IMG/VR virus record: IMGVR_UViG_3300008114_000137
Span: 1 to 30,284 of that record
Direction: 5' to 3' (one strand)
DNA: 30,284 nucleotides
Origin: a virus
Below the pieces are notes generated by a model. The model was not told the DNA's origin, made no database searches, and was given only the letters and a program-made list of their open reading frames with translations. Shown here one piece after another: positions 18,185 to 30,284 of the stretch; the first letter of the stretch is position 1, and every line of letters begins with the position of its first letter. Both the position numbers and the translations under genes were made by a program.

Positions 18185-18186
18185 GC

Positions 18187-19336: not shown

Positions 19337-19547
19337 AGATGTTGTTGCAGGCAAGAGTTATGCCTGCAAATTTAGAATTCCTGGTCCAGGTGCCTATGAG
19401 GGCATTGGTGTGATCGTACAAAGAGATCTAACAAATAAAATGGTTCGGTTGGTCGACAAAGATACCCTTATGGGTTTCGCTGTTTCTTTTGATGATATAT
19501 GGGATGTTGATGATGTCGTCTGGACCAATACTCCGCAAGAGCCCTGA
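19323..19547 (+). CDS. Small conserved phage protein
   Basis: Seventy-four residues overlapping the previous gene by 14 bases. MIKIEDVVAGKSYACKFRI...GIGVIVQRDLTNKMVRLVDKDT...FDDIWDVDDVVW is a small beta-barrel pattern that I associate with short phage proteins of unknown function. No catalytic residues evident. Confidence 0.75.
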   Translation: MIKIEDVVAGKSYACKFRIPGPGAYEGIGVIVQRDLTNKMVRLVDKDTLMGFAVSFDDIWDVDDVVWTNTPQEP

Positions 19548-20028
19548 TCGCTACACCTTTCAAATTGAGGCTTACAAAGAACGCAAGGCTCAAGAAGGCA
19601 AGACTGCTGACAACGACGATAACACTCGTGCCATGACAGAGTTTTATGCTTCCTTTGCGAAGCGTGACGAAGATAATGAAGCTGACCCCAAATGGCGCAA
19701 GAACAACCTTGAGTGGGATCTTCGCACCTCGGATAAACTCTGTGCCAAAGTCCTAGACGATGTGTATGCTGGCAAGCTCTACTCTGCTCTGTGCAACACT
19801 GATTGGATTCCTATTGAGGTAATCCCTTTACTGCGACAAGACCCTGACAAAGATATGTGGTCCTGCTCTTGGCGCTATGCCGGAGGCATCGTTGCTCATA
19901 TGCGTGAGAAAGGTGATTACATGGATTGGTACTGTCACGGCATGGAGGGTTTCATTGACCCTGAGATCGCGGCAGATTTAAAAGAACTAGGTTGGCAAGG
20001 TGTCGACAGTGAAGGAGTATGGGCATAA
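19513..20028 (+). CDS. Conserved phage protein (MTEFYASF...DWYCHGMEG)
   Basis: Up to 171 residues; the start is uncertain. From MTEFYASFAKRD (ATG 19633) onward the protein matches a pattern recurrent in phages: DPKWRKNNLEWDLRTSDKLCAKV, YAGKLYSALCNTDW, MWSCSWRYAGGIVAHMREKGDYMDWYCHG. Upstream ATGs at 19489-19513 lie inside the previous gene and lack a Shine-Dalgarno sequence, so the protein may begin at 19633 (131 residues). Function unknown. The stop shares a base with the next ATG. Confidence 0.75.
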   Translation: MSSGPILRKSPDRYTFQIEAYKERKAQEGKTADNDDNTRAMTEFYASFAKRDEDNEADPKWRKNNLEWDLRTSDKLCAKVLDDVYAGKLYSALCNTDWIPIEVIPLLRQDPDKDMWSCSWRYAGGIVAHMREKGDYMDWYCHGMEGFIDPEIAADLKELGWQGVDSEGVWA

Positions 20029-20423
20029 TGGATATTGGACCTTACAGTAGAAAACAGGTAATGACCACTTTTGTTCAGTGGGATGTGCCCAAAGAATATG
20101 CAGACCCGTTTTACAATTATCTTGTCTATGGGTATTCACCCGGTGGCTTTTTCACTTCTGTGCTAGCCAACGATTGGAGTGGGGCAGTCATGCGTTCGCA
20201 TCCGTCCAACACTATTGAAGCTCTCAAAGCGATCACAGGTTGGATTAGAGATTATATTCCTAGCCAGGCTCGAGGCAGCTATCCAGCTGTGGAGCATTGG
20301 TGTCGACTAGACTCGGACACACGGACAAAGATACTGTTAGAACATAATCTTATCCTGCCCTCTAAGACAGAAGTGTTCAAAGCACTCAAAGGCGAATCAG
20401 CCAATGATCCGTTTTTATATTAA
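20028..20423 (+). CDS. Conserved phage protein of unknown function
   Basis: A 131-residue protein from the ATG in a TAATG junction; an ATG three codons earlier sits only one base from GAAGGAG. It carries FYNYLVYGYSPGGFFTSVLANDW, SHPSNTIEALKAITGWIRDYIP and WGS/RGSYPAVEHW, a widely distributed phage pattern that has no assigned role as far as I know. Probably cytoplasmic and early expressed. Confidence 0.8.
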   Translation: MDIGPYSRKQVMTTFVQWDVPKEYADPFYNYLVYGYSPGGFFTSVLANDWSGAVMRSHPSNTIEALKAITGWIRDYIPSQARGSYPAVEHWCRLDSDTRTKILLEHNLILPSKTEVFKALKGESANDPFLY

Positions 20424-20544
20424 AATGAACAAACAAATAGAGTAATGTGTTCAATTAGTATTGCATTATATTTCTAGTTATAGTATAATAGATTGTAATG
20501 CGATAGGTTTCGCAGACAATTCTAACTTGAAAGAGGCTAATAAA
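20424..20544 (+). promoter_or_regulatory. Leader of the HTH gene with promoter and possible operator
   Basis: TATAAT at 20484-20489 with a poor -35 (TTGCAT 20461-20466, 17-base spacer). An inverted repeat, GCATTA at 20463-20468 and TAATGC at 20496-20501, brackets the promoter. A weak -35 within an inverted repeat suits repression by the downstream HTH protein; AAGAGG precedes ATG 20545. Confidence 0.5.
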
Positions 20545-20826
20545 ATGAAAAGATTTAATCCAGAAACTAAAACCTACAAGGTTTTCAACGCACTTTACAA
20601 TGGCGAAGCTCTTACTGCCGCTCAGGCTCGTAAGCGTTTTGGTGTTGGCAACTTGAGTGCTGAAGTATCACGCATCCGTCACAACGGTTATGCTGTATAT
20701 GGCAATCAGCGTGTCGCAGGCAACGGCGTTACCGTTACTGAATACGAGATGGGTCGTCCTTCACGCGAGATCGTTGCTCTTGGCTACAAGGCCAAAGCCG
20801 CTGGTCTTACACTAGACACTATCTAA
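20545..20826 (+). CDS. Helix-turn-helix protein
   Basis: Ninety-three residues from ATG 20545 with AAGAGG upstream; the longer frame from 20461 would start in the promoter. Residues 12-55 (YKVFNALYNGEALTAAQARKRFGVGNLSAEVSRIRHNGYAVYG) form a winged-helix pattern, with the recognition helix near GNLSAEVSRIRHNG and the wing after NGYAVYG. Probably a DNA-binding regulator of early phage genes, possibly autoregulated. A strong terminator follows. Confidence 0.8.
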   Translation: MKRFNPETKTYKVFNALYNGEALTAAQARKRFGVGNLSAEVSRIRHNGYAVYGNQRVAGNGVTVTEYEMGRPSREIVALGYKAKAAGLTLDTI

Positions 20827-20846
20827 ACCCTAAAAAGGTTATGACA

Positions 20847-20881
20847 GGGTGTGTTGTATTCGTGCAACACACCTTTTCTTT
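20847..20881 (+). terminator. Rho-independent terminator
   Basis: Stem GGTGTGTTG / CAACACACC (20848-20856 and 20865-20873), extended to a TTCG loop, followed by TTTTCTTTT. It ends the HTH transcript. Confidence 0.9.
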
Positions 20882-20895
20882 TGGCTAAAAAATGG

Positions 20896-20923
20896 TTGAC
20901 ATATAGCCTAGTGATGCTATAAT
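20896..20923 (+). promoter_or_regulatory. Sigma70 promoter for 20949-21327
   Basis: TTGACA, 16-base spacer, TATAAT at 20918-20923, directly after the terminator. Confidence 0.85.
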
Positions 20924-20948
20924 AGTTCTATATTGAGGAGCAAGGACT

Positions 20949-21098
20949 ATGAAGATCACAATTAAATTGAAGCAACCAAAACAACGCAATCTTATTGCTC
21001 GTGCCGTTTTGGACCCAAACAGCGTGTTTCGTCCAAAGAGCGAACGAGATCGTACCAAATACAATCGCAAAGCCAAACACCCCAACAAGGAGCAATGA
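20949..21098 (+). CDS. Small basic protein, DUF7230-like
   Basis: Forty-nine residues from ATG 20949 with AGGAG upstream. Strongly basic: KQPKQRNLIARAVLDPNSVFRPK...DRTKYNRKAKH. The RN-x-x-ARA...F...K-Y-x-RK order resembles short bacterial and phage proteins grouped as DUF7230, function unknown. The charge suggests nucleic-acid or ribosome binding; this is weakly supported. Confidence 0.7.
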   Translation: MKITIKLKQPKQRNLIARAVLDPNSVFRPKSERDRTKYNRKAKHPNKEQ

Positions 21099-21099
21099 A

Positions 21100-21327
21100 A
21101 TGGGCTATACCGTGCTACCCGAATTTGATCGCAAAGTCTACACTGACCTCAGCAAAGAGGGCCTGGAGGGTCCGTTCGTGTTCCAAACTGGAGCCGTGTT
21201 CTACTATGACCCTCGCGAAGGCAAATACTACGATCGTAGGACTGATATGTTCATCTCCAACAAAGACATGATGATCCACTACGGTTTGGTAGACGCTGAT
21301 CACTACAATCCTTTCAAAGAAGTTTGA
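21100..21327 (+). CDS. Small hypothetical protein
   Basis: Seventy-five residues from ATG 21100, two bases after the previous stop, with AAGGAG inside the preceding gene's end. Aromatic and acidic: FVFQTGAVFYYDPREGKYYDRRTDMFISNKDMMIHYGL looks like a small beta sheet. No family known. Confidence 0.75.
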   Translation: MGYTVLPEFDRKVYTDLSKEGLEGPFVFQTGAVFYYDPREGKYYDRRTDMFISNKDMMIHYGLVDADHYNPFKEV

Positions 21328-21338
21328 ACAAATAGAGG

Positions 21339-21367
21339 TTGACCTAGAGTTCAATCTTTGCTATAAT
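21339..21367 (+). promoter_or_regulatory. Sigma70 (early) promoter for 21398-21841
   Basis: TTGACC, 17-base spacer, TATAAT at 21362-21367; preceded by CAAATAGAGG and followed by TAACACATG. Confidence 0.85.
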
Positions 21368-21397
21368 TAACACATGAAACAACAAATAGGAGTAGCT

Positions 21398-21841
21398 ATG
21401 GAAAACACTTATTGGAATGGTCAGGGCAAGTTTCAAGCAGGATACAATGAGCTGATCAAGCTGATGCCTCCATCGGGCCGGGCAGACACAGTGGCTGGTG
21501 AAATGATTCGAGCAGTGAGCCGCTTGGGCTATGACTTCTACAACAACGGTATGGGCAACAACACCTCTGGTGCTGTGAACTTCCTGCGTGACAAGAGTGC
21601 CATTGACCCTGAGACCTATGCTACAATCTACGAATACACCCGAGGCCAACTGTATCGTGGACGCTACAACGGCGACAGCCTGCAACAGGCTATTGAACGG
21701 GCCACGGACATGACAGTGGAGATGATCACTCGAAATCCTGTGTTGATCACCCTCGCCAACACCCAAGATATGTTCGACTTCGAAGATGCTGAAGAGCATT
21801 ACGAATACGACGAAGACTACGACGAAGAAGAATTTCGGTAA
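21398..21841 (+). CDS. Conserved phage protein with acidic tail
   Basis: A 147-residue protein from ATG 21398, preceded by AGGAG; the ATG at 21374 sits at the predicted transcription start. MENTYWNGQGKFQAGYNELIKLMPPSGRADTVAGEMIRAVSRLGYDFYNNG is a recurrent phage pattern. The last 20 residues are nearly all Glu/Asp/Tyr. Helical, cytoplasmic, function unknown. Confidence 0.8.
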   Translation: MENTYWNGQGKFQAGYNELIKLMPPSGRADTVAGEMIRAVSRLGYDFYNNGMGNNTSGAVNFLRDKSAIDPETYATIYEYTRGQLYRGRYNGDSLQQAIERATDMTVEMITRNPVLITLANTQDMFDFEDAEEHYEYDEDYDEEEFR

Positions 21842-21849
21842 AATACAGG

Positions 21850-21878
21850 TTGACAGAGCCTGTGCTTTGTCATATAAT
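21850..21878 (+). promoter_or_regulatory. Sigma70 (early) promoter for 21906-23101
   Basis: TTGACA, 17-base spacer, TATAAT at 21873-21878; preceded by CGGTAAAATACAGG. Confidence 0.85.
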
Positions 21879-21905
21879 ATACACAACGCAACTAAGGAGT
21901 ATCTC

Positions 21906-22397
21906 ATGAACTGTTCACCCACACTTACCGCAGAAGAGTTTAAGACTGTCCACAACGCCCTTTGGGAATTGGATTGTGTGACCCAACAACTTGAAGATGT
22001 TCTCAAGCCTGAACTGTATGTTAAACTGGCCCATGCTGCCAGCACTATCCGACAGGGCCTCACAGGCGCTTACGAGCAGGACAATAGTGCTTTCGATCGC
22101 AAGAATGATCACTTCACTGCCGTGCAGAGCCAAGAACAGTTTAGGTCTATTTGGAGCCTCTATGAGATTGATGATCTTGACGCAGAGCATCCTTACCCTG
22201 CAGACAGTGTGGTAATGTATAGTCAGCATTGGGGTGAAAAGGGTCCTGTGCATTGTGCAGTATATGGTAAGACCTGGCGTGATCTATATCGTGCCGCTGA
22301 CAACTGTATCAAACTCAGCGGAGACCAGCATCATGTGTTTATTGAGTCGTTCACTCTAAAAAACGGCAACGAACTTAACCTTTCAACTGGGAGCTAA
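21906..22397 (+). CDS. Conserved phage protein of unknown function
   Basis: A 163-residue protein from ATG 21906 with AAGGAG upstream; a longer frame crosses the promoter and is rejected. The helical N-terminal half (LTAEEFKTVHNALWELDCV, LYVKLAHAASTIRQGLTGAYEQD) is followed by a beta-rich half with WSLYEIDDLDAEHPYPADSVVMY and YGKTWRDLYRAADNCI. The order is familiar from aquatic phages, but no function is known. Confidence 0.8.
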   Translation: MNCSPTLTAEEFKTVHNALWELDCVTQQLEDVLKPELYVKLAHAASTIRQGLTGAYEQDNSAFDRKNDHFTAVQSQEQFRSIWSLYEIDDLDAEHPYPADSVVMYSQHWGEKGPVHCAVYGKTWRDLYRAADNCIKLSGDQHHVFIESFTLKNGNELNLSTGS

Positions 22398-22399
22398 TT

Positions 22400-22615
22400 A
22401 TGGGTATGGAAAAACGAGTATTGAACGAGCTGGACGAAGAATTGAATGTGCAGGATGTGTATTTTGCCTATGGCAATCTTCATGTGCTGAACGGATACGA
22501 TCTTAAAAGTGTGGTGGGCTATATGCTGGTCAACTACCCTGACGTCAAGGTTATTCTTGACGAAGAAGACTATCAAATTGAAGCGTTCAATCCATACGAT
22601 ACGGTGAACAGCTAA
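22400..22615 (+). CDS. Small acidic hypothetical protein
   Basis: Seventy-one residues starting two bases after the previous stop. MGMEKRVLNELDEELNVQDVYFAYGNLHVLNGYDL...VKVILDEEDYQIEAF is acidic with alternating strands. No family known. It leads into a lipoprotein gene one base downstream. Confidence 0.75.
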   Translation: MGMEKRVLNELDEELNVQDVYFAYGNLHVLNGYDLKSVVGYMLVNYPDVKVILDEEDYQIEAFNPYDTVNS

Positions 22616-22616
22616 C

Positions 22617-22826
22617 ATGAAACTCACAGGTCTAGCAGTGATCCTAGTGGCCCTATGCCTACTACCAGGGTGTGGCACCACTGGCAAGAACTCTATCCAA
22701 ACAGTTAATCTGATACGGGGCCTTGACTCAGGCAGCTACAGTGGCCCGGGTCTCAATGAGCGTGTGATCAACTGCTTTGTGGCCACTGTGGACACCAACA
22801 ATCGCGGGGGCCCATGCAGTCGTTAA
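22617..22826 (+). CDS. Small lipoprotein
   Basis: Sixty-nine residues with signal peptide and lipobox MKLTGLAVILVALCLLPGC (C19), then a polar mature chain with one more Cys pair (INCFVATVD...GGPCSR). It overlaps the next membrane-protein gene by 13 bases, so an envelope pair is made together, as with the lipoproteins at 13698-14101. Confidence 0.8.
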   Translation: MKLTGLAVILVALCLLPGCGTTGKNSIQTVNLIRGLDSGSYSGPGLNERVINCFVATVDTNNRGGPCSR

Positions 22827-23101
22827 GGGCTACCCTAGAGTGGATTCGAGCAGACTATCGCACCAACCCCCTACGCTTCTGCATAGAGGCCTGGGCTTGG
22901 GCATTCAGTATTGGTGCGGCTGTGCTGTTCGCCGCAACTGTGCCCAATTTACCCTATGTGCCCTACTTGATCATCACTGTGACAAACTGTGCTCTTTATG
23001 CTTGGGCTAGTTGGAGCAGGGGATCATTTGGGCTCTTGGCCAATTATCTGCTTCTAACCACAATTGATACCATTGCGTTGATTCGAGCAGTCCTAGCCTA
23101 A
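22814..23101 (+). CDS. Three-helix membrane protein
   Basis: Ninety-five residues: an N-terminal amphipathic stretch with WIRADYRTNPLRF, then hydrophobic helices at about 23-42, 48-67 and 73-92 (SFGLLANYLLLTTIDTIALIR). Similar small membrane proteins occur in other aquatic phages; the function is unknown. A short hairpin, CTAGCC/GGCTAG (23094-23110), overlaps the stop. Confidence 0.8.
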   Translation: MQSLRATLEWIRADYRTNPLRFCIEAWAWAFSIGAAVLFAATVPNLPYVPYLIITVTNCALYAWASWSRGSFGLLANYLLLTTIDTIALIRAVLA

Positions 23102-23117
23102 ATTGGCTAGATCAAGG

Positions 23118-23146
23118 TTGACACTCCCTGGGTGGGATGTTATACT
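23118..23146 (+). promoter_or_regulatory. Sigma70 promoter for 23212-24034
   Basis: TTGACA, 17-base spacer, TATACT at 23141-23146; a 66-base leader contains the repeat GGAACAAGGGGGCTTGTTCC (23160-23179), which can form a hairpin. Confidence 0.85.
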
Positions 23147-23159
23147 GTATACACAGTAA

Positions 23160-23179
23160 GGAACAAGGGGGCTTGTTCC
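23160..23179 (+). other. 5' leader hairpin
   Basis: GGAACAAG and CTTGTTCC pair perfectly (8 bp) around a 4-base G-rich loop, 32 bases before ATG 23212. It may stabilise or regulate the mRNA. Confidence 0.6.
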
Positions 23180-23211
23180 ACTGCAACTAAACAAGGAAAG
23201 AGGGTAACACT

Positions 23212-23835
23212 ATGCCAAATTGGTGCAACAACAACGTCACAATCAGTCACACAGACCCAACCAAAATAGAGGCTCTTGCAGCCGCTGTGCGTGAGGGCAA
23301 GTTCTGCAATTTCGTAAAGCCAGTGCCAGCGAGCCTGCACATCGTAGCAGGACGAGTTGGGGATGACAACGATCCTGAGCAGATCAAACTGCATGAACAA
23401 ACCATGAACAATCTTAGCGTCTACGGCTATGCTACATGGTATGACTTCTGTGTGAACGAATGGGGCACCAAGTGGGATGTAGACTCTTACGAGGGCGAGA
23501 ATACCCAGGTAGAGAACGGTGTGCTAGAGTTTGGCTTTGACTCAGCTTGGAGTCCTCCTGTGTTCGTGTATGAAGCATTGGTAGATCAGGGCTATGCTGT
23601 GATCGCATACTACAACGAACCCGGTATGGGCTTTGTGGGCAAGTGGGACAATGGTGTAGATGATTGCGTTGAATACCACGGCCAAACCAGTGACACTGTG
23701 CGTGATTACATTGGTGAAGAACTGGACGATATGTATGCCATCTCAGAGACCATGGCAGAATACGAAGACTTTGAAAATCAAGAGATTGACCTCGATGGGG
23801 GAGCAAGTGCAACCAATGAACAAGTCAAGGATTAA
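23212..23835 (+). CDS. YubB/DUF1281-type ferredoxin-like-fold protein
   Basis: A 207-residue protein opening MPNWCNNNVTI, with WYDFCVNEWGTKWDVDSYE, FGFDSAWSPPVFVYEALVDQGY and NEPGMGFVGKWDNG. This order (MPNWC-N, WYxW/FC-N-WGTKWD, F-T/S-x-WSPP, E-x-G-x-x-F-x-G) defines the YubB/DUF1281 (Api92-like) family found on plasmids and phages. Biochemical role is unknown. AGGAAAGAGGG upstream of the ATG. Acidic C-terminus. Confidence 0.85.
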   Translation: MPNWCNNNVTISHTDPTKIEALAAAVREGKFCNFVKPVPASLHIVAGRVGDDNDPEQIKLHEQTMNNLSVYGYATWYDFCVNEWGTKWDVDSYEGENTQVENGVLEFGFDSAWSPPVFVYEALVDQGYAVIAYYNEPGMGFVGKWDNGVDDCVEYHGQTSDTVRDYIGEELDDMYAISETMAEYEDFENQEIDLDGGASATNEQVKD

Positions 23836-23839
23836 GCTG

Positions 23840-24034
23840 ATGCCCGGAACATTCGAACTCGCAGCCATTCTGCGTGTGCAGGGCTTTCTCTCAGCATACG
23901 ACACAGATCAACCCGCAGAAATCCTAGCTGACATCATGCACTACTGCAACTCTGCAGGCATCAACTTCCTAGGACAGGTTCACCTAGCAGAAAGCTATGT
24001 AGTAGAAGAGCTCAGTGCAGACTCAGAGGCCTAG
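23840..24034 (+). CDS. Small conserved phage protein
   Basis: Sixty-four residues from ATG 23840, preceded by AAGGA nine bases upstream; ATG 23816 inside the previous gene is an alternative. FELAAILRVQGFLSAYDTDQPAEILADIMHYCNSAGINF is helical and resembles short phage proteins of unknown role. Confidence 0.7.
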   Translation: MPGTFELAAILRVQGFLSAYDTDQPAEILADIMHYCNSAGINFLGQVHLAESYVVEELSADSEA

Positions 24035-24040
24035 TCAAAA

Positions 24041-24077
24041 GTGTAAATACTGGGAAGGCAGAAATTAAGCCTTCCCA
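24041..24077 (+). promoter_or_regulatory. TGTAAATA box followed by a hairpin
   Basis: GTGTAAATAC at 24041-24050 resembles the late box; a 9-bp stem, TGGGAAGGC / GCCTTCCCA, at 24051-24059 and 24069-24077 follows directly. If the box is used, the mRNA for 24094-24874 would start with this hairpin. It has no T-tract, so a terminator is less likely. Confidence 0.4.
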
Positions 24078-24093
24078 ACTCAAAGGTATTAGC

Positions 24094-24411
24094 ATGGATG
24101 ACCAGGACGATGACGAATTTGAAGGCACAGATGATGTTGTGCCTGTATACACAGTTGATGAAGAAACCAGAAGTATCATAGAAGCGGCACTGAACTGCAT
24201 GGTCAGCCTTTCCGAAGCACAGATCTCAGAAGAAGCGGCACAGAGTGTCCTAGCCCTCGCAGACGATCTAGCCATTAGATTCAATATAAATCGCATTGAA
24301 GTAGAGCAAGAAGTGCATACAGAGGACGGTGTTGATGAAGTGATCTACCGTCCCAAGAACAGCATTTTCAAGAGCAAGCTACTGGACGATGACGACCCCG
24401 AAGCCCAGTAG
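24094..24411 (+). CDS. Acidic hypothetical protein
   Basis: A 105-residue, strongly acidic protein: an N-terminal run of Asp/Glu, a helical middle (TRSIIEAALNCMVSLSEAQISEEAAQSVLALADDLAIRF) and a charged tail. AAAGG lies upstream. It overlaps the next gene by 23 bases. No family known. Confidence 0.75.
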   Translation: MDDQDDDEFEGTDDVVPVYTVDEETRSIIEAALNCMVSLSEAQISEEAAQSVLALADDLAIRFNINRIEVEQEVHTEDGVDEVIYRPKNSIFKSKLLDDDDPEAQ

Positions 24412-24874
24412 TCTTTGGAAAGGACAGCTACGAGTCGCCAGCACCGCTGTGCAGGATTATGCACATCTTGTAGCGAATTCAATACCTCCTGAAGACTCAG
24501 AGCGTTTTGCTCGCAAAATGATCTACTGGCTGACCCACGAGCCCCTGCATCCCATTATACTCACAGCAGAACCCGAAGGGATACTCACTATAGCACGAGG
24601 ACAGAGCAGATTCCTAGCCGCTGTGATTCTGGGCAAAAGTTGGCCCTGTAGAGTGTTTGCTTATCACAAGCCCAACTCAGATCCCAGCAGTTGGTTAGAG
24701 CAGATACTGACCAAAACCAAGCAGTGTACGGTCAGAGCTAAACTGCCCGAAGACCCACAGGATCCTATACTGGGATTCAAACTTGCACTGAATCAAATAG
24801 CTCTGCCCTCACGGTTGCCCACTAACTACGCAGAGTGGTGCGAATTTCTGGACAGAGCAAGGTTAGCCCTCTAA
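24389..24874 (+). CDS. ParB-like-fold hypothetical protein
   Basis: A 161-residue protein. The middle part EPLHPIILTAEPEGILTIARGQSRFLAAVILGKSWPCRVFAY follows the ParB/sulfiredoxin-like order (P-x-x-V/I-x-x, G-x-x-R/S-R, A-A-x-x-L-G-x-x-x-P). In ParB-related proteins this domain binds CTP or acts as a nuclease; the key residues here are only partly matched. Starts inside the preceding gene. Confidence 0.65.
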   Translation: MTTPKPSSLWKGQLRVASTAVQDYAHLVANSIPPEDSERFARKMIYWLTHEPLHPIILTAEPEGILTIARGQSRFLAAVILGKSWPCRVFAYHKPNSDPSSWLEQILTKTKQCTVRAKLPEDPQDPILGFKLALNQIALPSRLPTNYAEWCEFLDRARLAL

Positions 24875-24917
24875 TCCGCAGAGCGGTGCAAAAAAAATTT
24901 AACACCCAGTTAGGATT

Positions 24918-25166
24918 CTAAGCGGCATTGAGCAGATAGTAGGGTTTACCAATCGCACTAACCCACGAACTAAACTGTAGCAAGAACAAGCTACGCACAG
25001 GTGTATCCTCTAGCTCTATGACCCATCCTGTGTTACTGAGACTGATACGAGTTCTATACATGGGCACACTACGACCCTCAAACTGACACCACAGCCACAT
25101 ACGATTGATATGATCGTAGTTGGTGGTTTGAACTAGATAGTATTCAACTGCCCTGATATTAGCCAT
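24918..25166 (-). CDS. Small hypothetical protein, lone minus-strand gene
   Basis: Eighty-two residues from ATG 25166. Sequence is protein-like (VEYYLVQTTNYDHINRMWLWCQFEGRSVPMYRTRISLSNTGWVIELEDTPVRSLF) with alternating strands, and the plus strand here has no competing gene. It converges on 24389-24874 and diverges from 25333-25545 across the GGCCCCGCTGT repeats. No family known. Confidence 0.65.
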   Translation of the reverse strand: MANIRAVEYYLVQTTNYDHINRMWLWCQFEGRSVPMYRTRISLSNTGWVIELEDTPVRSLFLLQFSSWVSAIGKPYYLLNAA

Positions 25167-25206
25167 TTGCCCATTTGCCCTTGTGCAATAGTATATATCG
25201 AATCTA

Positions 25207-25222
25207 TGCTATAAAGCATACG
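25207..25222. repeat. Short inverted repeat in divergent region
   Basis: TATGCT and AGCATA pair around a 4-base centre (ATAA), between the minus gene starting 25166 and the first GGCCCC repeat. Possible operator. Confidence 0.45.
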
Positions 25223-25230
25223 CACCTACT

Positions 25231-25292
25231 GGCCCCGCTGTAAGCATATTGGACACACGCACTAGAACACTTATAGTATAGGCCCCGCTGTA
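25231..25292. repeat. Pair of GGCCCCGCTGTA repeats in a divergent intergenic region
   Basis: Copies at 25231-25242 and 25281-25292, exactly 50 bases apart start to start, between divergent genes 25166 (minus) and 25333 (plus). The 11-base core is identical to the pair at 13389-13434. The downstream copy in each pair is preceded by ATA. Confidence 0.75.
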
Positions 25293-25320
25293 GGGTTCTA
25301 GGCATTCTAGGTGCAGAGTC

Positions 25321-25327
25321 TTAAATA
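25321..25327 (+). promoter_or_regulatory. Late-type box TTAAATA abutting the start of 25333-25545
   Basis: Ends six bases before ATG 25333; T4-like spacing puts transcription start on the A of the ATG. No Shine-Dalgarno sequence present. Confidence 0.45.
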
Positions 25328-25332
25328 AGTGT

Positions 25333-25545
25333 ATGAGCAAGCAAGAACACAACAAGGCGAGTATTGAACTGGTGACTGCACTACTGCGTCTAGCGCCTAG
25401 TAGATACACCACTGAAAAGGGTCGTTGGGTATGGGTGGCAGGCAGGTTAGCTTCAATGATTATACGCTGGAGCAGACTGGACATGACTGTGCGTCAAGAA
25501 GTTGAGGGACTACTTAGAGATAGTAGGAGACGGGGCAGTGAGTAA
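25333..25545 (+). CDS. Small basic helical protein
   Basis: Seventy residues, basic and helical (KASIELVTALLRLAPSRYTTEKGRWVWVAGRLASMIIRWSRLDMTVRQEVEGLLRDSRRR). It could bind nucleic acid, but no family is recognised. It shares with 13461-13640 and ALAS the start context TTAAATA plus ATG without a ribosome-binding site. Confidence 0.65.
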   Translation: MSKQEHNKASIELVTALLRLAPSRYTTEKGRWVWVAGRLASMIIRWSRLDMTVRQEVEGLLRDSRRRGSE

Positions 25546-25549
25546 CGGA

Positions 25550-25639
25550 ATGGTAGATGAAATGGTAAATGAAATGGTAAAAGTATTTGAACTATGCCTC
25601 TCGTCACCTCGACCTTGCCAATCTTTTCCACGCTTGTAG
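25550..25639 (+). CDS. Possible 29-residue peptide with MVxE repeats
   Basis: From ATG 25550, five bases after the previous stop. The first half repeats MVDEMVNEMV, reflecting a direct repeat ATGGTARATGAA in the DNA. No Shine-Dalgarno sequence. It may be noise. Confidence 0.25.
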   Translation: MVDEMVNEMVKVFELCLSSPRPCQSFPRL

Positions 25640-25818
25640 AGGCCGATTTGCGTCCTTGATCAGACGGTTCTAATACACCACCTCACCATAGGACCACCAT
25701 TGTAGACGGTTTTTAACGCCCTGCAACCGGCCTTAAATGGTGGTTCTACTCTGACTCTACTGTGAAGTCTACTATAGACTAAGCTGTGATCACACTGTGT
25801 GACTCTACTATACTGTAT

Positions 25819-25866
25819 AGACCTAGACCACTATTAACCCTAGTGTCAACCAGGTCTTTCTTTTTT
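25819..25866 (+). terminator. Probable terminator
   Basis: AGACCT (25819-25824) pairs with AGGTCT (25852-25857); an inner stem CACTA/TAGTG (25829-25833 and 25841-25845) sits inside; a TTTCTTTTTT tract follows. Confidence 0.55.
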
Positions 25867-25892
25867 GTGGCTTTTATGCAACGGATTTGCCC

Positions 25893-25986
25893 TGTGGATA
25901 AGCTGTGGATAAGCTGTGGATAACTTTGGCCCGTGCTTGTGGATAAGCTGTGGATAACTTTGACATTGTGGATAACCTGTGGATAA
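25893..25986. other. Cluster of seven perfect DnaA boxes (candidate origin or DnaA trap)
   Basis: TGTGGATAA, the complement of the consensus DnaA box TTATCCACA, occurs at 25893, 25904, 25915, 25938, 25949, 25967 and 25978, all in the same orientation. Neighbours within groups are exactly 11 bases apart (one helical turn). The cluster follows a palindrome-rich stretch and a terminator, and no gene overlaps it. In bacteria such arrays are replication origins or DnaA-titrating sites. Confidence 0.85.
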
Positions 25987-26112
25987 CCTGGGGTCTCGCG
26001 CCTGCCCCTGTTCGTTCGGATTCGGTCCTAAACCGCCGCCCACCCTCCACGTCCACCCCGGAATTGTAGTCCTTCGACGCTATGCAGGGGTCTTCTTGTT
26101 GTGCCTTGCCCT

Positions 26113-26128
26113 TACTGTTCTTACAGTA
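26113..26128. repeat. Inverted repeat TACTGT...ACAGTA
   Basis: Six-base arms around a 4-base centre, 70 bases upstream of the promoter at 26199. Possible operator. Confidence 0.4.
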
Positions 26129-26180
26129 TAACGCCTTTTGGCTTTTGAGTCAACCGTTTTTTGGTGTCCAGGTCCAGTGT

Positions 26181-26204
26181 AGGGTCTTTATATTTTGGTT
26201 GACA
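26181..26204 (+). repeat. 24-bp direct repeat, copy 1
   Basis: Identical to 26535-26558; includes GGTCTTTATATTTTGG and the -35 hexamer. The copies flank one AT-rich gene. Confidence 0.8.
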
Positions 26205-26227
26205 TGAGGGGCACTTTGCGCTATAAT
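26199..26227 (+). promoter_or_regulatory. Sigma70 (early) promoter for 26254-26514
   Basis: TTGACA, 17-base spacer, TATAAT at 26222-26227, then TAACAC. Confidence 0.85.
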
Positions 26228-26253
26228 TAACACTTCGGAACAAAGGAAACACA

Positions 26254-26514
26254 ATGCAAGCACTACGCAAAAGCCCAATCAAATTTACATTTAATAATGT
26301 ACAGTATAAGGTCCCTGTTAATAACTTTGTCCCCGCAAAAGGTTATGTTAATGTGTTAGCTATTAGTCCTAGTATAGTAGACGAAAATACAGATAACCCT
26401 GCTATTAGAATATTTGTACAATGTAATAAAAACAGCCAACAAAATGGTCGTCAATATGCTTTGTTTTATAATATTAATAAACGTCAATTTGACGGACATT
26501 TTACAGTAAACTAA
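26254..26514 (+). CDS. AT-rich hypothetical protein
   Basis: Eighty-six residues with AAAGGAAA upstream. Asn- and Lys-rich, beta-like (FTFNNVQYKVPVNNF, YVNVLAIS, AIRIFVQCN, YALFYNINKRQF). Codons are markedly more A/T-ended than in neighbouring genes, and the gene with its terminator is flanked by 24-bp direct repeats, suggesting recent acquisition. No family known. Confidence 0.75.
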   Translation: MQALRKSPIKFTFNNVQYKVPVNNFVPAKGYVNVLAISPSIVDENTDNPAIRIFVQCNKNSQQNGRQYALFYNINKRQFDGHFTVN

Positions 26515-26521
26515 ACAATAG

Positions 26522-26550
26522 CCCTTCGCAACGGAGGGTCTTTATATTTT
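26522..26550 (+). terminator. Rho-independent terminator
   Basis: Stem CCCTTCG / CGGAGGG (7 bp, one G-T pair) with a CAA loop, followed by TCTTTATATTTT. The T-tract doubles as the upstream element of the next promoter. Confidence 0.75.
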
Positions 26551-26558
26551 GGTTGACA
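26535..26558 (+). repeat. 24-bp direct repeat, copy 2
   Basis: Second copy of 26181-26204, 354 bases downstream. Confidence 0.8.
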
Positions 26559-26581
26559 GTTTGGGCTAGAGGTAGTATACT
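26553..26581 (+). promoter_or_regulatory. Sigma70 (early) promoter for 26605-26865
   Basis: TTGACA, 17-base spacer, TATACT at 26576-26581. Confidence 0.85.
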
Positions 26582-26604
26582 GTAAACACTAAGGAGAGCA
26601 AGCT

Positions 26605-26865
26605 ATGACGCAGAAGACATTCAGATTTGTAGGGGTCAGTACACTGAACGGTGTGACTGCTGTGCGCTATGCTAACGAGAAGGGCCGTGCTCGTGTACTA
26701 GAGCGCAACGGACACTTGGATGTGGTGCTAGTAGACGCAGAGGAAGCACTACACCAGATGGACTTGGTGGACCTGCTGTTGACCCGTGCAGAGGCGGGGG
26801 AGTTTGATACACCTGCGGTTGAGGCTATAGGTGCAGAAGCGCGGCGCTTGGGCTTTGTAGTATAA
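26605..26865 (+). CDS. Small phage protein, paralogue of 29245-29586
   Basis: Eighty-six residues with AAGGAG upstream. FVGVSTLNGVTAVRYANEKGRARVLERNGHLDVVLVD aligns without gaps in the first part with AGVSTHKGVTKVRFANDF of 29245-29586, and both continue with a helix and an EAIGAEA/QGAIAEY segment. This copy lacks the basic tail. The family recurs in phages; the role is unknown. Confidence 0.8.
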   Translation: MTQKTFRFVGVSTLNGVTAVRYANEKGRARVLERNGHLDVVLVDAEEALHQMDLVDLLLTRAEAGEFDTPAVEAIGAEARRLGFVV

Positions 26866-26889
26866 CCTTACAGGGCACAGGGCTTTTGG

Positions 26890-26918
26890 TTGACAGTTTG
26901 GATTTGTCGTGCTATAAT
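26890..26918 (+). promoter_or_regulatory. Sigma70 (early) promoter for 26949-27146
   Basis: TTGACA, 17-base spacer, TATAAT at 26913-26918. Confidence 0.85.
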
Positions 26919-26948
26919 ATAGGTACAGTAAATAACAAGGAGTTAAAA

Positions 26949-27146
26949 ATGACTACATTAAAAGATAAGTTAGGCCGTACTGTAACAGTGGGTGACCGGA
27001 TAGCGTATGCTTCCTTTCACAACCTAGGAATGACGATTGGTACTATCACTAAGCTAGGCCGTCTCCGCGCCGAAGTAATTGCAGAAGATACTAGTTTTAG
27101 CGATCGGTCAGAATCTTTACTCACCACTGAATTGATCAAGATTTAA
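26949..27146 (+). CDS. Small SH3/KOW-like protein
   Basis: Sixty-five residues from ATG 26949 with AAGGAG upstream; a longer frame from 26886 begins in the promoter. LGRTVTVGDRIAYASFHNLGMTIGTITKLGRLRAEVIAED is a typical small SH3-like barrel: G-D/x-x-V, strand, GTI-x-K-x-G-R, strand. Possible RNA or protein binding; unknown function. Confidence 0.8.
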   Translation: MTTLKDKLGRTVTVGDRIAYASFHNLGMTIGTITKLGRLRAEVIAEDTSFSDRSESLLTTELIKI

Positions 27147-27151
27147 AACGG

Positions 27152-27180
27152 TTGACAGCATCTGAGAACGGTGCTATACT
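27152..27180 (+). promoter_or_regulatory. Sigma70 (early) promoter for 27213-27875
   Basis: TTGACA, 17-base spacer, TATACT at 27175-27180, then TTAACAC. Confidence 0.85.
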
Positions 27181-27212
27181 ATTAACACTGAAACATTAAG
27201 AGGGCAATCAAA

Positions 27213-27551
27213 ATGCGTGAATTCAACAGTATGCAGGACTTGGCAGACGAAGTGCAGGATCTCGTAGAACGCCAGGTGCAGGGGATGCGCTGGGTTAGTG
27301 CTAGCGAGTTAGGCCTGGACAATCGTTGTGGTCGTGCTTATGTAGACGAGAACATGGACTGTATCGTTGTTGACTCAGACCGTGCTCGCAGTTATAACTA
27401 TTACGGTGGCTTCGAATACATCGACGCTGAGGATATCCGTACACTGGGAGACTATGTGATCTACTTGGACACCTCGGATCGTGTGCGGGACGCACTAGAG
27501 GCTCTTATGGAGCGGGATGGTGTTTGCGAATCGGAGAAAGAAGATGCTTAA
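27213..27551 (+). CDS. Conserved phage protein of unknown function
   Basis: A 112-residue acidic protein with AGAGGG upstream. WVSASELGLDNRCGRAYVDENMDCIVVDSDRARSYNYYGGFEYIDAEDIRTLGDYVIYLD is a recurrent phage pattern, possibly a small alpha/beta domain. It overlaps the next 28-residue gene by 8 bases. Confidence 0.8.
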   Translation: MREFNSMQDLADEVQDLVERQVQGMRWVSASELGLDNRCGRAYVDENMDCIVVDSDRARSYNYYGGFEYIDAEDIRTLGDYVIYLDTSDRVRDALEALMERDGVCESEKEDA

Positions 27552-27630
27552 GGATACACTTAGGATGCTGGTGCAGGCCGTTGTGATCTATGCTGTCTTG
27601 CTGGGAGCCTATTGGGGATTCATAGCATGA
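27544..27630 (+). CDS. 28-residue membrane peptide
   Basis: From ATG 27544 to TGA 27630: MLKDTLRMLVQAVVIYAVLL plus GAYWGFIA, a single hydrophobic helix after a short basic start. It overlaps both neighbours (8 bases upstream, ATGA downstream), which supports it as a real coupled gene. Function unknown. Confidence 0.7.
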   Translation: MLKDTLRMLVQAVVIYAVLLGAYWGFIA

Positions 27631-27875
27631 ACTCAGTCCTGAACACCAGGGTGCGGCCCACAGTGGTATTCAATGTGCGCAACTCAGAGCACCGTCGCTA
27701 TGCTTGGCAGTTTATGAAGGTGCGCACCTGGCGCGACTGCCCTGTGATCTTTGCTCTGCCCAACGGCGAACCCTCTGTGTCCACGCTGATAGCCCGAGAG
27801 CTGTCGGAGTACTATGCAGACCTGGAGTTCAGCTCTGTGGCTACACCGCAGAAGCGCATCCGAGCTGTGTTGTAA
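27627..27875 (+). CDS. Small basic hypothetical protein
   Basis: Eighty-two residues from the ATG in ATGA with the membrane peptide. Contains RPTVVFNVRNSEHRRYAWQFMKVRTWRDCPVIFALPNGEPSVSTLIARELSEYY, a compact alpha/beta arrangement. No family known. A weak hairpin, GTTGT/ACAAC, then follows. Confidence 0.75.
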   Translation: MNSVLNTRVRPTVVFNVRNSEHRRYAWQFMKVRTWRDCPVIFALPNGEPSVSTLIARELSEYYADLEFSSVATPQKRIRAVL

Positions 27876-27905
27876 AAAAACAACAACTTCTTGGTAAAAA
27901 AGAGG

Positions 27906-27934
27906 TTGACAATTTGGTAGTTCGGTAGTATACT
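27906..27934 (+). promoter_or_regulatory. Sigma70 (early) promoter giving a leaderless mRNA for 27941-28162
   Basis: TTGACA, 17-base spacer, TATACT at 27929-27934; the ATG at 27941 lies seven bases after the -10. Preceded by TTGGTAAAAAAGAGG. Confidence 0.85.
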
Positions 27935-27940
27935 ATACAC

Positions 27941-28162
27941 ATGAACTTAGAAAACACAGCAAAGAATTTGGGCTTGGTCGCTACCCTAAGCGGTGCGATC
28001 GCTACTAGCCTAGCAATGGATCCCCTGAACATATGGCTTCTGAACGCAGGCGCTGTGCTGTACTTGTTCTGGAGTCTACGTGTTCGGGACTGGAATTTGG
28101 TGGCAGTGAACGCAGGGTTGTTGACAATCTATGCGATTGGTGCTATAATTAGGCTTGTTTAA
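27941..28162 (+). CDS. Three-helix membrane protein
   Basis: Seventy-three residues with hydrophobic helices at about 9-25, 28-46 and 51-70 (LGLVATLSGAIATSL, DPLNIWLLNAGAVLYLFWSL, WNLVAVNAGLLTIYAIGAII). ATG 27941 coincides with the predicted transcription start and has no ribosome-binding site, so translation is probably leaderless; the next in-frame ATG would remove helix 1. The 3' end contains another sigma70 promoter. Confidence 0.8.
   Translation: MNLENTAKNLGLVATLSGAIATSLAMDPLNIWLLNAGAVLYLFWSLRVRDWNLVAVNAGLLTIYAIGAIIRLV
28121..28149 (+). promoter_or_regulatory. Sigma70 promoter inside the 3' end of 27941-28162
   Basis: TTGACA, 17-base spacer, TATAAT at 28144-28149; serves 28174-28428. 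Confidence 0.85.
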
Positions 28163-28173
28163 GAGAGGGCACA

Positions 28174-28428
28174 ATGGCTAAATCCGCACAGCAGAAGTTC
28201 AACGAATACATGGACGAATGTCGCGAGACAGGGGACTCCGTGAATCAATTGGTAGACCGTAGCTTTGATGCGAATGGTTCTTATGCGTATGCCGCAGGCT
28301 TCCTGGGGTCTATTCTAAAAGAAGTGATCGCAGAGCTGCCCAAACAGCGCCGGGCGGACTACCGCAACAGGCTCTACAGGCAAGCGCAAGAGTTTAAAAA
28401 CAAAATGGTTGACAAAGTCACAGTTTGA
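28174..28428 (+). CDS. Small helical hypothetical protein
   Basis: Eighty-four residues with AGAGAGGG upstream. Almost wholly helical: QQKFNEYMDECRETGDSVNQLVDRSF, AYAAGFLGSILKEVIAELPK, YRNRLYRQAQEFKNKMV. Perhaps a helical bundle; no family known. A promoter overlaps its last codons. Confidence 0.75.
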   Translation: MAKSAQQKFNEYMDECRETGDSVNQLVDRSFDANGSYAYAAGFLGSILKEVIAELPKQRRADYRNRLYRQAQEFKNKMVDKVTV

Positions 28429-28437
28429 TCGTATAAT
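28409..28437 (+). promoter_or_regulatory. Sigma70 (early) promoter for 28465-28605
   Basis: TTGACA, 17-base spacer, TATAAT at 28432-28437, overlapping the upstream stop; followed by TAACACATG. Confidence 0.85.
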
Positions 28438-28464
28438 TAACACATGTTCAAAAAAGGAGCTATC

Positions 28465-28605
28465 ATGCAAAAGTCCATTCCGTCCTCCACTGGCGGCACT
28501 ATTACTTTCACCAAAACTGGCTTGATCCACAAGAGCGGCAATGCCTACTCGGGCAAGATCGCAGCCGTTGAAGCTAAACAGAAACCCGTAGCCCCTAAGG
28601 GTTAA
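28465..28605 (+). CDS. 46-residue hypothetical protein
   Basis: From ATG 28465 with AAAGGAG upstream to TAA 28605. MQKSIPSSTGGTITFTKTGL, IHKSGNAYSGKIAAVEAK and QKPVAPKG: polar, Thr/Gly/Lys-rich with a basic tail. No family known. The promoter, the strong ribosome-binding site and the next promoter directly after its stop support it. Confidence 0.7.
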   Translation: MQKSIPSSTGGTITFTKTGLIHKSGNAYSGKIAAVEAKQKPVAPKG

Positions 28606-28608
28606 TGG

Positions 28609-28637
28609 TTGACAGGGCATCCAAACCCTGTTATAAT
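28609..28637 (+). promoter_or_regulatory. Sigma70 (early) promoter for 28670-29125
   Basis: TTGACA, 17-base spacer, TATAAT at 28632-28637, then AAACACT. Confidence 0.85.
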
Positions 28638-28669
28638 AAACACTTAAACACATTAAGAGGGCAATCTAA

Positions 28670-29125
28670 ATGGCAACACGAAGCACAATCGCATTGGAAT
28701 TCGCAGACGGCACAGTCCAGCAGGTCTACTGCCACTGGGACGGCTACTTGGATCACAACGGTAAGATCCTGCAGGAGCACTATGCAGACCCGTTCAAACT
28801 GCGTGACTTGATCGACTTGGGCGACATTAGTTCACTCAAGCCTACTGTGGGCACCAAGCACGCCTTTAGTCAGTTTGAAGTTCCAATGGACGGCGAAGCC
28901 TACGACAAGCTCTACGGCAACATGACTACCTTCTACGGACGCGATCGCGGCGAAACAGGCGTGGGTCCTAAGAGCTTCAAAGACTATGCGGACTATGTAG
29001 AGAACTTCCAGCACGAGGAATATGCTTACATTCTGCGTACGGACGGTGTTTGGTATGTCAAGTGCCACTCAGCGGACTTTGTGACATTGGCGGAAGCCTT
29101 TGAAGCAGAGAAGGAAACGGCATAA
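28670..29125 (+). CDS. Conserved phage protein of unknown function
   Basis: A 151-residue protein with AGAGGG upstream. MATRSTIALEFADGTVQQVYCHWDGYLDHNGKIL, YADPFKLRDLIDLGDISSLKP, FYGRDRGETGVG and EEYAYILRTDGVWYVK form a pattern found in many phages and some plasmids. It looks like a compact alpha/beta domain. No biochemical role is known to me. Confidence 0.85.
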   Translation: MATRSTIALEFADGTVQQVYCHWDGYLDHNGKILQEHYADPFKLRDLIDLGDISSLKPTVGTKHAFSQFEVPMDGEAYDKLYGNMTTFYGRDRGETGVGPKSFKDYADYVENFQHEEYAYILRTDGVWYVKCHSADFVTLAEAFEAEKETA

Positions 29126-29155
29126 CATTTTGGACAGACTGTCTTCAGAAAAAGG

Positions 29156-29184
29156 TTGACAGTCAATCCAAATGAGTGCATAAT
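29156..29184 (+). promoter_or_regulatory. Sigma70 (early) promoter for 29245-29586
   Basis: TTGACA, 17-base spacer, CATAAT at 29179-29184, then ATACACAG. Confidence 0.8.
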
Positions 29185-29244
29185 ATACACAGTGCTTGAG
29201 AAATAGCACTTTAAATCAAACTTAACTTTTAAAGGCAAACTAAA

Positions 29245-29586
29245 ATGGCAACTTCAAAAACTTATAGCGTAGCAGGCGTTTCAACCCACAAAGGCGTGAC
29301 CAAGGTCCGTTTTGCAAATGACTTCGTGAATCGTATCAAGATTCTGCAGAAGAACGATCACACTGCGATCGAGTTGATCGAGTTGGACACTGAGCTGACT
29401 AAAGAAGACATCTGCAAGATGTTGATGGATCACCCCAAGTTCCAAAACGAAGCCGCTCAAGGCGCGATTGCTGAGTATGTTACTCGCAATGTCAAGGTCG
29501 AAGCTCCTAAGGCTAAGACTCCTAAAGCCAAGGCTCCTAAGGCTACAGCAGTTCAAGTAGAGAACGCAGAACCTGCGTTGATGTAA
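29245..29586 (+). CDS. Small phage protein with histone H1-like tail, paralogue of 26605-26865
   Basis: A 113-residue protein. Residues 1-85 match 26605-26865 (VAGVSTHKGVTKVRFANDFVNRIKILQKNDHTAIELIE then a helix). Residues 88-105 add a Lys/Ala/Pro repeat tail, with KAKTPKAKAPKA visible, resembling the disordered C-terminus of histone H1-like proteins. The tail suggests DNA or RNA contact. AAAGG lies well upstream of the ATG. Confidence 0.8.
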   Translation: MATSKTYSVAGVSTHKGVTKVRFANDFVNRIKILQKNDHTAIELIELDTELTKEDICKMLMDHPKFQNEAAQGAIAEYVTRNVKVEAPKAKTPKAKAPKATAVQVENAEPALM

Positions 29587-29601
29587 TTGGACTTCTCGGG
29601 C

Positions 29602-29631
29602 GGAGAGCTTCACGGCTCTCCCTGCTCAGGG
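29602..29631 (+). terminator. Hairpins after 29586, possible terminator
   Basis: GGAGAGC / GCTCTCC (29602-29608 and 29615-29621) followed by the overlapping palindrome CCCTGCTCAGGG (29620-29631). There is no T-tract, so it may be a weak terminator or a processing signal before the tRNAs. Confidence 0.4.
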
Positions 29632-29655
29632 TAGCGGTGGGGACCCTAGGCAATC

Positions 29656-29663
29656 TATAAATA
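29656..29663 (+). promoter_or_regulatory. Late promoter TATAAATA upstream of the tRNA cluster
   Basis: Exact box 29 bases before the first tRNA. It suggests the tRNAs are transcribed, at least partly, in the late phase. Confidence 0.6.
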
Positions 29664-29691
29664 CTTCCTCGATGCTCTTTTAAATTCAAAT

Positions 29692-29768
<77 letters not shown>

Positions 29769-29772
29769 TATC

Positions 29773-29857
29773 GCGACTGTGGTGAAATAGGTAGACACAA
29801 GAGACTTAAAATCTCTCGCTTTCGGGCGTGCCGGTTCGATTCCGGCCAGTCGCACCA
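29773..29857 (+). tRNA. tRNA-Leu (UAA)
   Basis: An 85-base tRNA with acceptor GCGACTG / CAGTCGC, anticodon TAA at 29807-29809 (CTTAAAA loop), the long variable arm expected for Leu, T-loop TTCGATT and encoded CCA. It reads UUA/UUG. Confidence 0.97.
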
Positions 29858-29863
29858 TCCAAT

Positions 29864-29939
29864 CTGCCCGTAGCTCAGTGGATAGAGCAACAGCCTTCTA
29901 AGCTGTGGGTCGGAGGTTCGATCCCTCCCGGGCAGGCCA
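29864..29939 (+). tRNA. tRNA-Arg (UCU)
   Basis: A 76-base tRNA with acceptor CTGCCCG / CGGGCAG, D-arm AGCTCAGTGGATAGAGC, anticodon TCT at 29897-29899 in CTTCTAA, T-arm GGAGG / CCTCC and encoded CCA. It reads AGA/AGG. Confidence 0.97.
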
Positions 29940-29940
29940 T

Positions 29941-29965
29941 TGTTGTAAAAATACAACACTCTTTT
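29941..29965 (+). terminator. Terminator after the tRNA cluster
   Basis: Perfect 7-bp stem TGTTGTA / TACAACA with an AAAA loop (29941-29958), followed by CTCTTTT. It separates the tRNAs from the next promoter. Confidence 0.7.
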
Positions 29966-29967
29966 GG

Positions 29968-29996
29968 TTGACAGGGTCTTTGTTTGGTGCTATACT
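29968..29996 (+). promoter_or_regulatory. Sigma70 (early) promoter for 30027-30284
   Basis: TTGACA, 17-base spacer, TATACT at 29991-29996. Confidence 0.85.
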
Positions 29997-30026
29997 AGAG
30001 GCATAGTAAGAAACAAGGAGCAGAAA

Positions 30027-30284
30027 GTGAACTACGAAAACATGATGAACACCGCACAAGGACTAGAGCTGATGAAGGGTTTGACTTTCGTCAAGGTCGA
30101 AGGCGCTGTGGGCTCAGACGAGATGCTGTTCGAAACCGCAGAGGGTGCTCGATTTGTGTTTGGTCACTATCAGAACTGCTGTGAGAGAGTAGACATCAAC
30201 GACATCACAGGGGACCTTGAAGACCTCGTAGGTGAGCCGCTCCTGATCGCAGAAGAAGTATCCGGTGAGACTCCTGTAGACTTC
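30027..30284 (+). CDS. DUF7448-like phage protein, partial
   Basis: Eighty-six codons from GTG 30027, with AAGGAG eight bases upstream, open to the window end. The order GLTFVKVEG, SDEMLFETAEGARFVFGHYQNCCERVDINDITGDLEDLVGEPLLIAEE matches the small phage family DUF7448, recognised by its CCE-x-V-x-I-x-D-I-x-G-D-L core. Role unknown. The 3' end lies outside the window. Confidence 0.8.
   Translation, partial: MNYENMMNTAQGLELMKGLTFVKVEGAVGSDEMLFETAEGARFVFGHYQNCCERVDINDITGDLEDLVGEPLLIAEEVSGETPVDF

Follow-up and report, generated by a model that had tools for sequence, protein, structure and literature searches.

What is a tight row of perfect DnaA boxes doing in a phage genome: does the host initiator work there for the phage, or is it drawn away from the host? 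We addressed this question for the window, that is, the whole stretch of viral DNA analyzed here, whose source record is a fragment of 30,284 bases. An exact-word scan located seven copies of TGTGGATAA at 25893-25986 on the + strand, all in a single orientation and starting at 25893, 25904, 25915, 25938, 25949, 25967, and 25978, and the window held no further perfect copy on either strand. Simulated windows (Markov orders 1, 3, and 5; 200 each) contained 0.3 to 0.8 chance copies of the word per window, and across all 600 the maximum was one perfect box per 94 bp, against seven in the real sequence. Among all 9-mers of the window, TGTGGATAA ranked first for repetition within 100 bp. When one mismatch was allowed, the excess became weaker, with 18 sites against a shuffle mean of 8.3 and 1 of 100 shuffles reaching 18. 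The simulations and shuffles rule out a chance origin of the array and confirm the core of the original prediction, namely, seven same-orientation perfect boxes in 94 bp. The word fits the DnaA-box consensus TTWTNCACA as given in an excerpt of PMC5835720, and the segment is most likely, as predicted from its sequence, a binding array for host DnaA.

The boxes follow each other at 11, 11, 23, 11, 18, and 11 bp. The helical phasing claimed for them holds in part: four of the six spacings are 11 bp and the 23-bp one is close to two turns, but the 18-bp spacing is out of phase (mean resultant at 10.5 bp, 0.75). Among the seven copies, the nine core columns are invariant and linker columns -1, +10, and +11 all vary, a pattern expected once in 220 if any 3 of 12 columns were free to vary, with the core picked post hoc. 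An invariant core between variable linkers argues against a neutral tandem duplication without function, which we regard as the least probable of the readings considered here. In its favor, a 25-bp unit is present twice inside the array as a perfect duplicate, and since this unit occurs twice unchanged, the array probably grew by duplication. The base 5' of the box is C in five of the seven copies, so the unit might exceed a DnaA box in length, in keeping with the idea that TGTGGATAA is the operator of another phage or host protein and equals the DnaA box by coincidence. We judge this very improbable, and the fit of the unit to the DnaA-box consensus speaks against it. A hairpin-type element was discarded, as the array folded no better than shuffles (z = 0.43).

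Three other IMG/VR contigs (those behind L128, L129, and L130) carry the identical array. Their long aligned parts are 99.66 to 99.96% identical to the window, one 632-bp piece being 95.7% identical. The presence of the array in four contigs rules out a misassembled host origin, a source of error that the original prediction had named, and the near-identity of these contigs makes them uninformative about selection on the array. All three other contigs also hold a second cluster 6.7 to 6.8 kb to the right of the array, made of two inverted boxes and one direct box. At L129:16097-16131, which lies outside the window, this cluster gave a strong hairpin (z = -5.65) and ends 19 bp ahead of a consensus sigma-70 promoter (-35 at L129 16151). 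Such a placement in the same phage favors a regulatory or structural DnaA site, at which bound DnaA would steer early transcription or pause DNA entry, along the lines suggested for the injection-stop region of T5. For the array this role seems quite unlikely to us, since about 210 bp separate its end from the closest rightward consensus -35 (26199) and about 140 bp separate it from the promoter that points leftward. To our knowledge, stepwise DNA entry has not been described for T4-like phages, which also counts against it. At the other end of the window, the left structural part (1-7600) did not align to the near-identical contig G002, whose match to the window starts at 7601 even though the contig continues for 8.8 kb further left; positions 1-7600 are thus a variable region.

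Three further genes of the window deserve mention. A phage-borne 5-aminolevulinate synthase is encoded at 8737-9930 on the + strand (TIGR01821, 564 bits against a cut-off of 338.55) and is followed at 9914-10333 (+) by a DUF454-like protein that scores below its cut-off; the top-listed phage-record match is only 34% identical. The synthase hints at a host among the Alphaproteobacteria. At 10883-11452 on the - strand lies the gene of a YqgE/AlgH-like protein, below the curated cut-offs and, as far as we know, unusual in phages.

The left part of the window consists mostly of - strand genes, including those of a virion protein and an endolysin, and the right part of small rightward ORFs and three tRNAs. 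Ten perfect 12-of-12 TTGACA/TATAAT sigma-70-type promoters lie between 13400 and 30284, all of them on the + strand. The right part, including the spacer with the array, is a probable early region. This spacer spans 708 bp (25546-26253) between rightward small ORFs at 25333-25545 and 26254-26514 (+), the latter, which is the first ORF right of the array, encoding 86 amino acids with no Pfam family. The stretch had been described as gene-poor, and indeed no ATG-started ORF of at least 50 amino acids overlaps the array; three GTG-started ORFs nevertheless do, those of 60 and 65 amino acids on the - strand running through it and one of 50 amino acids on the + strand beginning inside the last box. 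Palindromes and a terminator had been reported as well. Inverted repeats exist, the best being an imperfect one left of the array (25689-25748; 24-nucleotide arms, 75% complementary), but terminator-like sites were no commoner than in shuffles (17 in 13400-30284 against a shuffle mean of 15.2).

Two sigma-70-type promoters, both identified by consensus match only, lie right of the array. One (TTGACA-17-TATAAT, 26199-26227, +) is placed ahead of the next gene, and the other (TTGACT-17-TATACT, 26125-26153, -) is directed at the array and at a conserved motif. A leftward promoter facing the boxes would suit a DnaA-dependent or DnaA-assisted phage origin, at which DnaA on the array would help to open the duplex and bring in a helicase for the initial rounds of phage replication, with the leftward transcript perhaps serving as primer. 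We hold such an origin to be unlikely. It lacks an AT-rich stretch within 200 bp, where the best 40-bp stretch is 65% AT (percentile 0.07 to 0.08 of the window), and no DnaA-trio-like run of three triplets was found within 60 bp on either side, on either strand. A search for IHF-like sites over the same 200 bp gave one-mismatch matches solely at places that overlap the boxes, and a two-mismatch match at 26148; no datA-like IHF site between boxes was found within 200 bp of the array.

The motif faced by the leftward promoter, TCGA ... GGG(A/G)TGGACG..GAGGG (26026-26085, -), emerged from an alignment of 16 copies, sometimes two per locus, and is found beside some arrays and also in array-free relatives. 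It lies 3' of a leftward sigma-70-type promoter in the window, at L130:17030-17078, in L342, L343, L345, L346, L350, L351, L354, L355, and L358, and in others. We ruled out that array and motif form a joint unit, since the motif occurs without a cluster in L351, L354, L355, and L358 and clusters occur without the motif in G027, L368, L391, and L395. A structured RNA was likewise rejected (no consensus fold; single-sequence z of -0.36, 0.07, and 1.86), as was an encoded peptide, whose frames stop after differing short lengths. Rfam gave no match at gathering score at the motif and one chance-level match in the region (E = 0.2). The motif is possibly a small RNA or a protein site.

Whether relatives carry such boxes was assessed on loci picked by protein, not by boxes. 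The AAA ATPase and a 239-amino-acid protein encoded right of the window, used as queries, gave closer relatives than the RNA ligase; for one of these two, the best 80 of 180 relatives were used. At least three perfect boxes per 200 bp, in the gene region that corresponds to that of the array, occurred in 8 of 96 loci, a set without six loci that come from the window's own species and without L363, which lies on the L339 contig, and in which other near-duplicates remain; the reversed word and the scrambled word each scored 0 of 96. The clusters comprise five perfect boxes in L339 (contig G027), four in L342, three in L345, six in L346, three each in L368, L369, and L391, and six in L395, L368 and L369 being near-identical, with 61% of words in common. 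Every cluster lies 0.6 to 7.7 kb 5' of the query gene, and 28 of the 33 boxes are on that gene's strand. In a de novo count of repeated 9-mers, TGTGGATAA came first in L339, L342, L346, and L395 and tied for the top rank in L368 and L369; in L345 a shifted copy of the word itself outranked it, and L391 was topped by an unrelated repeat. A lack of boxes in related phages, which the original prediction had named as refuting it, is borne out only in part: eight loci have clusters, most do not, and box number and orientation vary, the last point also weakening the case for a regulatory site. The 88 cluster-free loci, many of them short, would be in line with neutral duplication, against which stands the recurrence of boxes in relatives as opposed to none for either control word. 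In L345, TGTGGATAA boxes are mixed with TGTGGACAA variants, which we take to be a DnaA-box variant of other bacteria; this mixture is difficult to reconcile with an operator for an unrelated protein.

Comparison of individual loci pointed to gain or loss of the boxes. The cluster-bearing L342 and the cluster-free L351 and L354 have in common a left word, GTCAACC(A/T)GGT, and a longer right block, and L358 shares only the right block with L342. Because L342 has the same flanks as L351 and L354 and differs from them in boxes, the cluster was presumably gained or lost at one site, and the empty site in L351 and L354 argues against an origin. In favor of an origin, some clusters of relatives do have AT-rich flanks (percentiles of 0.93 in L368, 0.82 in L339, and 0.81 in L346).

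Two long contigs, G009 (178 kb) and G004 (159 kb), came to light through the RNA-ligase relatives. The RNA ligase and AAA ATPase of G009 are 61 and 59% identical to those of the window phage, and G009 encodes a tail sheath, a DNA polymerase, a DnaB-like helicase, and a ribonucleotide reductase; G004 has several genes in common with the window phage. Neither contig contains a box cluster, even at one mismatch, a further point against an origin, and among the RNA-ligase relatives L133-L175, some of whose loci may stop short of the early region, 0 of 43 had three boxes per 200 bp. The 358-kb contig G027 has an ATPase 79% identical and encodes a RIIA homologue, a ribonucleotide reductase, a DnaB-like helicase, and a DNA polymerase of the same family as that of G009. 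Judging from these relatives, the window phage appears to be T4-like, as had been supposed. Its own polymerase and helicase make the array-bearing G027 an awkward case for a DnaA-dependent origin. The genes that G027 shares with the window phage lie nearly all right of the G027 array (one is to the left), and on both sides of the array in the window phage. In G027, 16 of 17 + strand perfect sigma-70-type promoters fall within the first 40 kb. Its GC skew rises locally at about 10 to 25 kb, with the array at 11.4 kb, but largely tracks the coding strand and is thus not decisive as evidence of an origin. No polymerase of that family was found in G039, which has three boxes, or in G033 and G035, contigs that may be fragments.

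Beyond these relatives, three-box clusters with gaps of 1 to 15 bp were found in at least 120 viral contigs, compared to 7 for the reversed and 17 for the scrambled word, both of these being full counts. The original prediction had implied that the array was unique, a claim that fails because such arrays are widespread in viral contigs. Among the matches listed, 111 of 128 viral clusters have a single orientation and 115 of 128 are clear of ATG ORFs of at least 100 amino acids; same-orientation spacings peak at 11, 12, 21, and 22 bp, the pattern admitting 10 to 24 bp only. One viral contig holds 23 perfect DnaA boxes in 486 bp (L116:12862-13347). Clusters in bacterial contigs (at least 119 stretches) show spacing peaks at 11, 12, and 20-22/23 bp, resembling the viral ones. 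This resemblance lends weight to a DnaA-binding array, be it a sink or an origin, and the occurrence of arrays with the same spacing peaks in bacteria argues against an operator for another protein. Among the matches listed, bacterial clusters were less often of single orientation (82 of 141) than viral ones (111 of 128). By the AT-rich flank measure, phage and bacterial arrays are alike as groups (medians of 0.80 and 0.82, respectively, among the matches listed), and 18 of 134 bacterial clusters listed had a percentile below 0.5.

Of 14 annotated phage records, an unfair sample because they were selected through BLAST searches with box arrays, eight had three or more perfect boxes per 200 bp (DC31, phiEap-1, A7, BD5, S16a, Kp7, NJ2, and VCPH), and phiL47, Kenrey, VF16, Big4, Salva, and AAS21 had no three perfect boxes per 200 bp. 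The underlying list of 347 records (E up to 10) includes chance hits and is not a count of arrays. The T7-like and SP6-like arrays, of three to five perfect boxes at or by genome ends, are situated at about 71-174 of NC_028772.1, 22-135 of NC_048180.1, 63-222 of ON148527.1, and 15.8 kb of OR822025.1; those of phiEap-1, A7, and Kp7 lie at most about 225 bp from the record end, and that of NJ2 between the terminase and a kinase gene. VCPH has three boxes of mixed orientation adjoining the A2-A3 gene, and the presence of DnaA boxes near pre-early genes in two T5-like phages, VF16 and VCPH, lends support to a regulatory or DNA-entry site. So does a 2026 paper, the available part of which states that the proposed T5 injection stop signal contains DnaA boxes (PMC13250531). 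A figure of PMC11512268 depicts, according to its legend, a predicted origin with DnaA boxes for another phage, a precedent for an origin. Among the matches listed in openly licensed papers, none dealt with genome-end arrays of T7-like or SP6-like phages, and none treated phage DnaA-box arrays as sinks or surveyed them; the parts available of PMC6293099 and PMC3556154 are silent on such boxes in phages. That phage DNA can contain DnaA boxes is thus already known; what appears to be new is a compact row of perfect tandem boxes within what is probably the early region of a T4-like group, some of whose members also have clusters.

Taken together, these data lead us to lean toward a sink for host DnaA first, an origin second, and a regulatory or DNA-entry site third, the sink being a tentative preference that we stop short of calling probable. 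To judge from the sequence and spacing of the boxes, DnaA molecules would be able to bind next to one another on consensus 9-mers that mostly follow at one helical turn, and incoming, then multiplying, phage genomes would capture host DnaA away from oriC. This capture may derepress DnaA-controlled promoters; host initiation would halt, and the phage would copy itself with its own replisome. The early region, DnaA binding, titration, and phage benefit are the steps that we infer. We prefer a sink over an origin because there is no AT-rich stretch within 200 bp, because the array-bearing G027 has its own polymerase and helicase, and because the presence of the array is variable. Replication of T7-like and SP6-like phages is known to need no DnaA, and the arrays of the DnaA-independent T7-like phages likewise incline us to a sink and away from an origin. 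G009 encodes a polymerase and a DnaB-like helicase yet has no array. Of the two options offered by the original prediction, origin and decoy, the lack of a nearby AT-rich stretch and the pattern of presence and absence tentatively favor the decoy.

Several observations count against a sink. Some clusters of relatives have AT-rich flanks, phage and bacterial arrays are alike as groups in this measure, a datA-type IHF site was not found, and no polymerase of that family was found in G039, G033, and G035, which may be fragments. T4-like phages have other ways of shutting down host replication. The DnaA pool of E. coli is about a thousand. The sink is weakest in its number of sites, as seven boxes per genome (ten with the second cluster) face 307 chromosomal consensus boxes in E. 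coli (excerpt of PMC5835720); with so few boxes for such a pool, a sink would work only after multiplication of the phage DNA, in a host low in DnaA, or catalytically. In E. coli, plasmids bearing DnaA boxes do raise the initiation mass, according to the same excerpt (PMC5835720). More broadly, arrays of consensus boxes might have arisen by convergence in unrelated virulent phages (the T4-like group, T7-like and SP6-like phages, and perhaps T5-like ones), each time in the non-coding DNA that enters or is expressed earliest, so that the host initiator would be captured as infection starts without the help of a protein; we find this generalization rather doubtful. If the arrays are sinks, plain DNA without a gene product switches off host replication; if they are origins, replication in some T4-like phages relies on host DnaA, a dependence of which we know no case in this group and which would be new there. 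Either way, DnaA arrays could mark early regions and host-takeover sites in phage genomes.

Among known systems, the array resembles E. coli datA, the DnaA titration (DDAH) locus, in being a cluster of DnaA boxes and a proposed DnaA sink. It differs in having seven perfect head-to-tail boxes and no IHF site found between boxes, whereas datA, as described in the excerpt of PMC5835720, has two consensus boxes, four with one misfit, and an essential IHF site. With bacterial oriC-type arrays it shares the clustered box and the spacing peaks at 11/12 and 20 to 23 bp; in contrast to them, it has no adjoining AT-rich unwinding element and no DnaA-trio repeats, its presence varies among relatives, and bacterial arrays are less often of one orientation. 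DARS needs boxes in a set mixed orientation, unlike the seven boxes here, which all point one way. The pre-early or injection-stop region of T5-like phages (available part of PMC13250531) is similar in that DnaA boxes lie in non-coding DNA near early genes of a virulent phage, but the boxes are sparse or mixed in the three T5-like records compared, not tandem and perfect as in the array. The arrays at the ends of phiEap-1, A7, and Kp7 and by the terminase of NJ2 most often have spacings of at least 20 bp and belong to unrelated phages; they too comprise three to five perfect boxes in one orientation with no annotated gene across them. Limnohabitans phage DC31, with a 76-kb genome and two boxes inverted relative to the other three, is like the window phage a freshwater phage, has an RNA ligase 53% identical, and carries its five perfect boxes in a spacer of about 930 bp among small ORFs.
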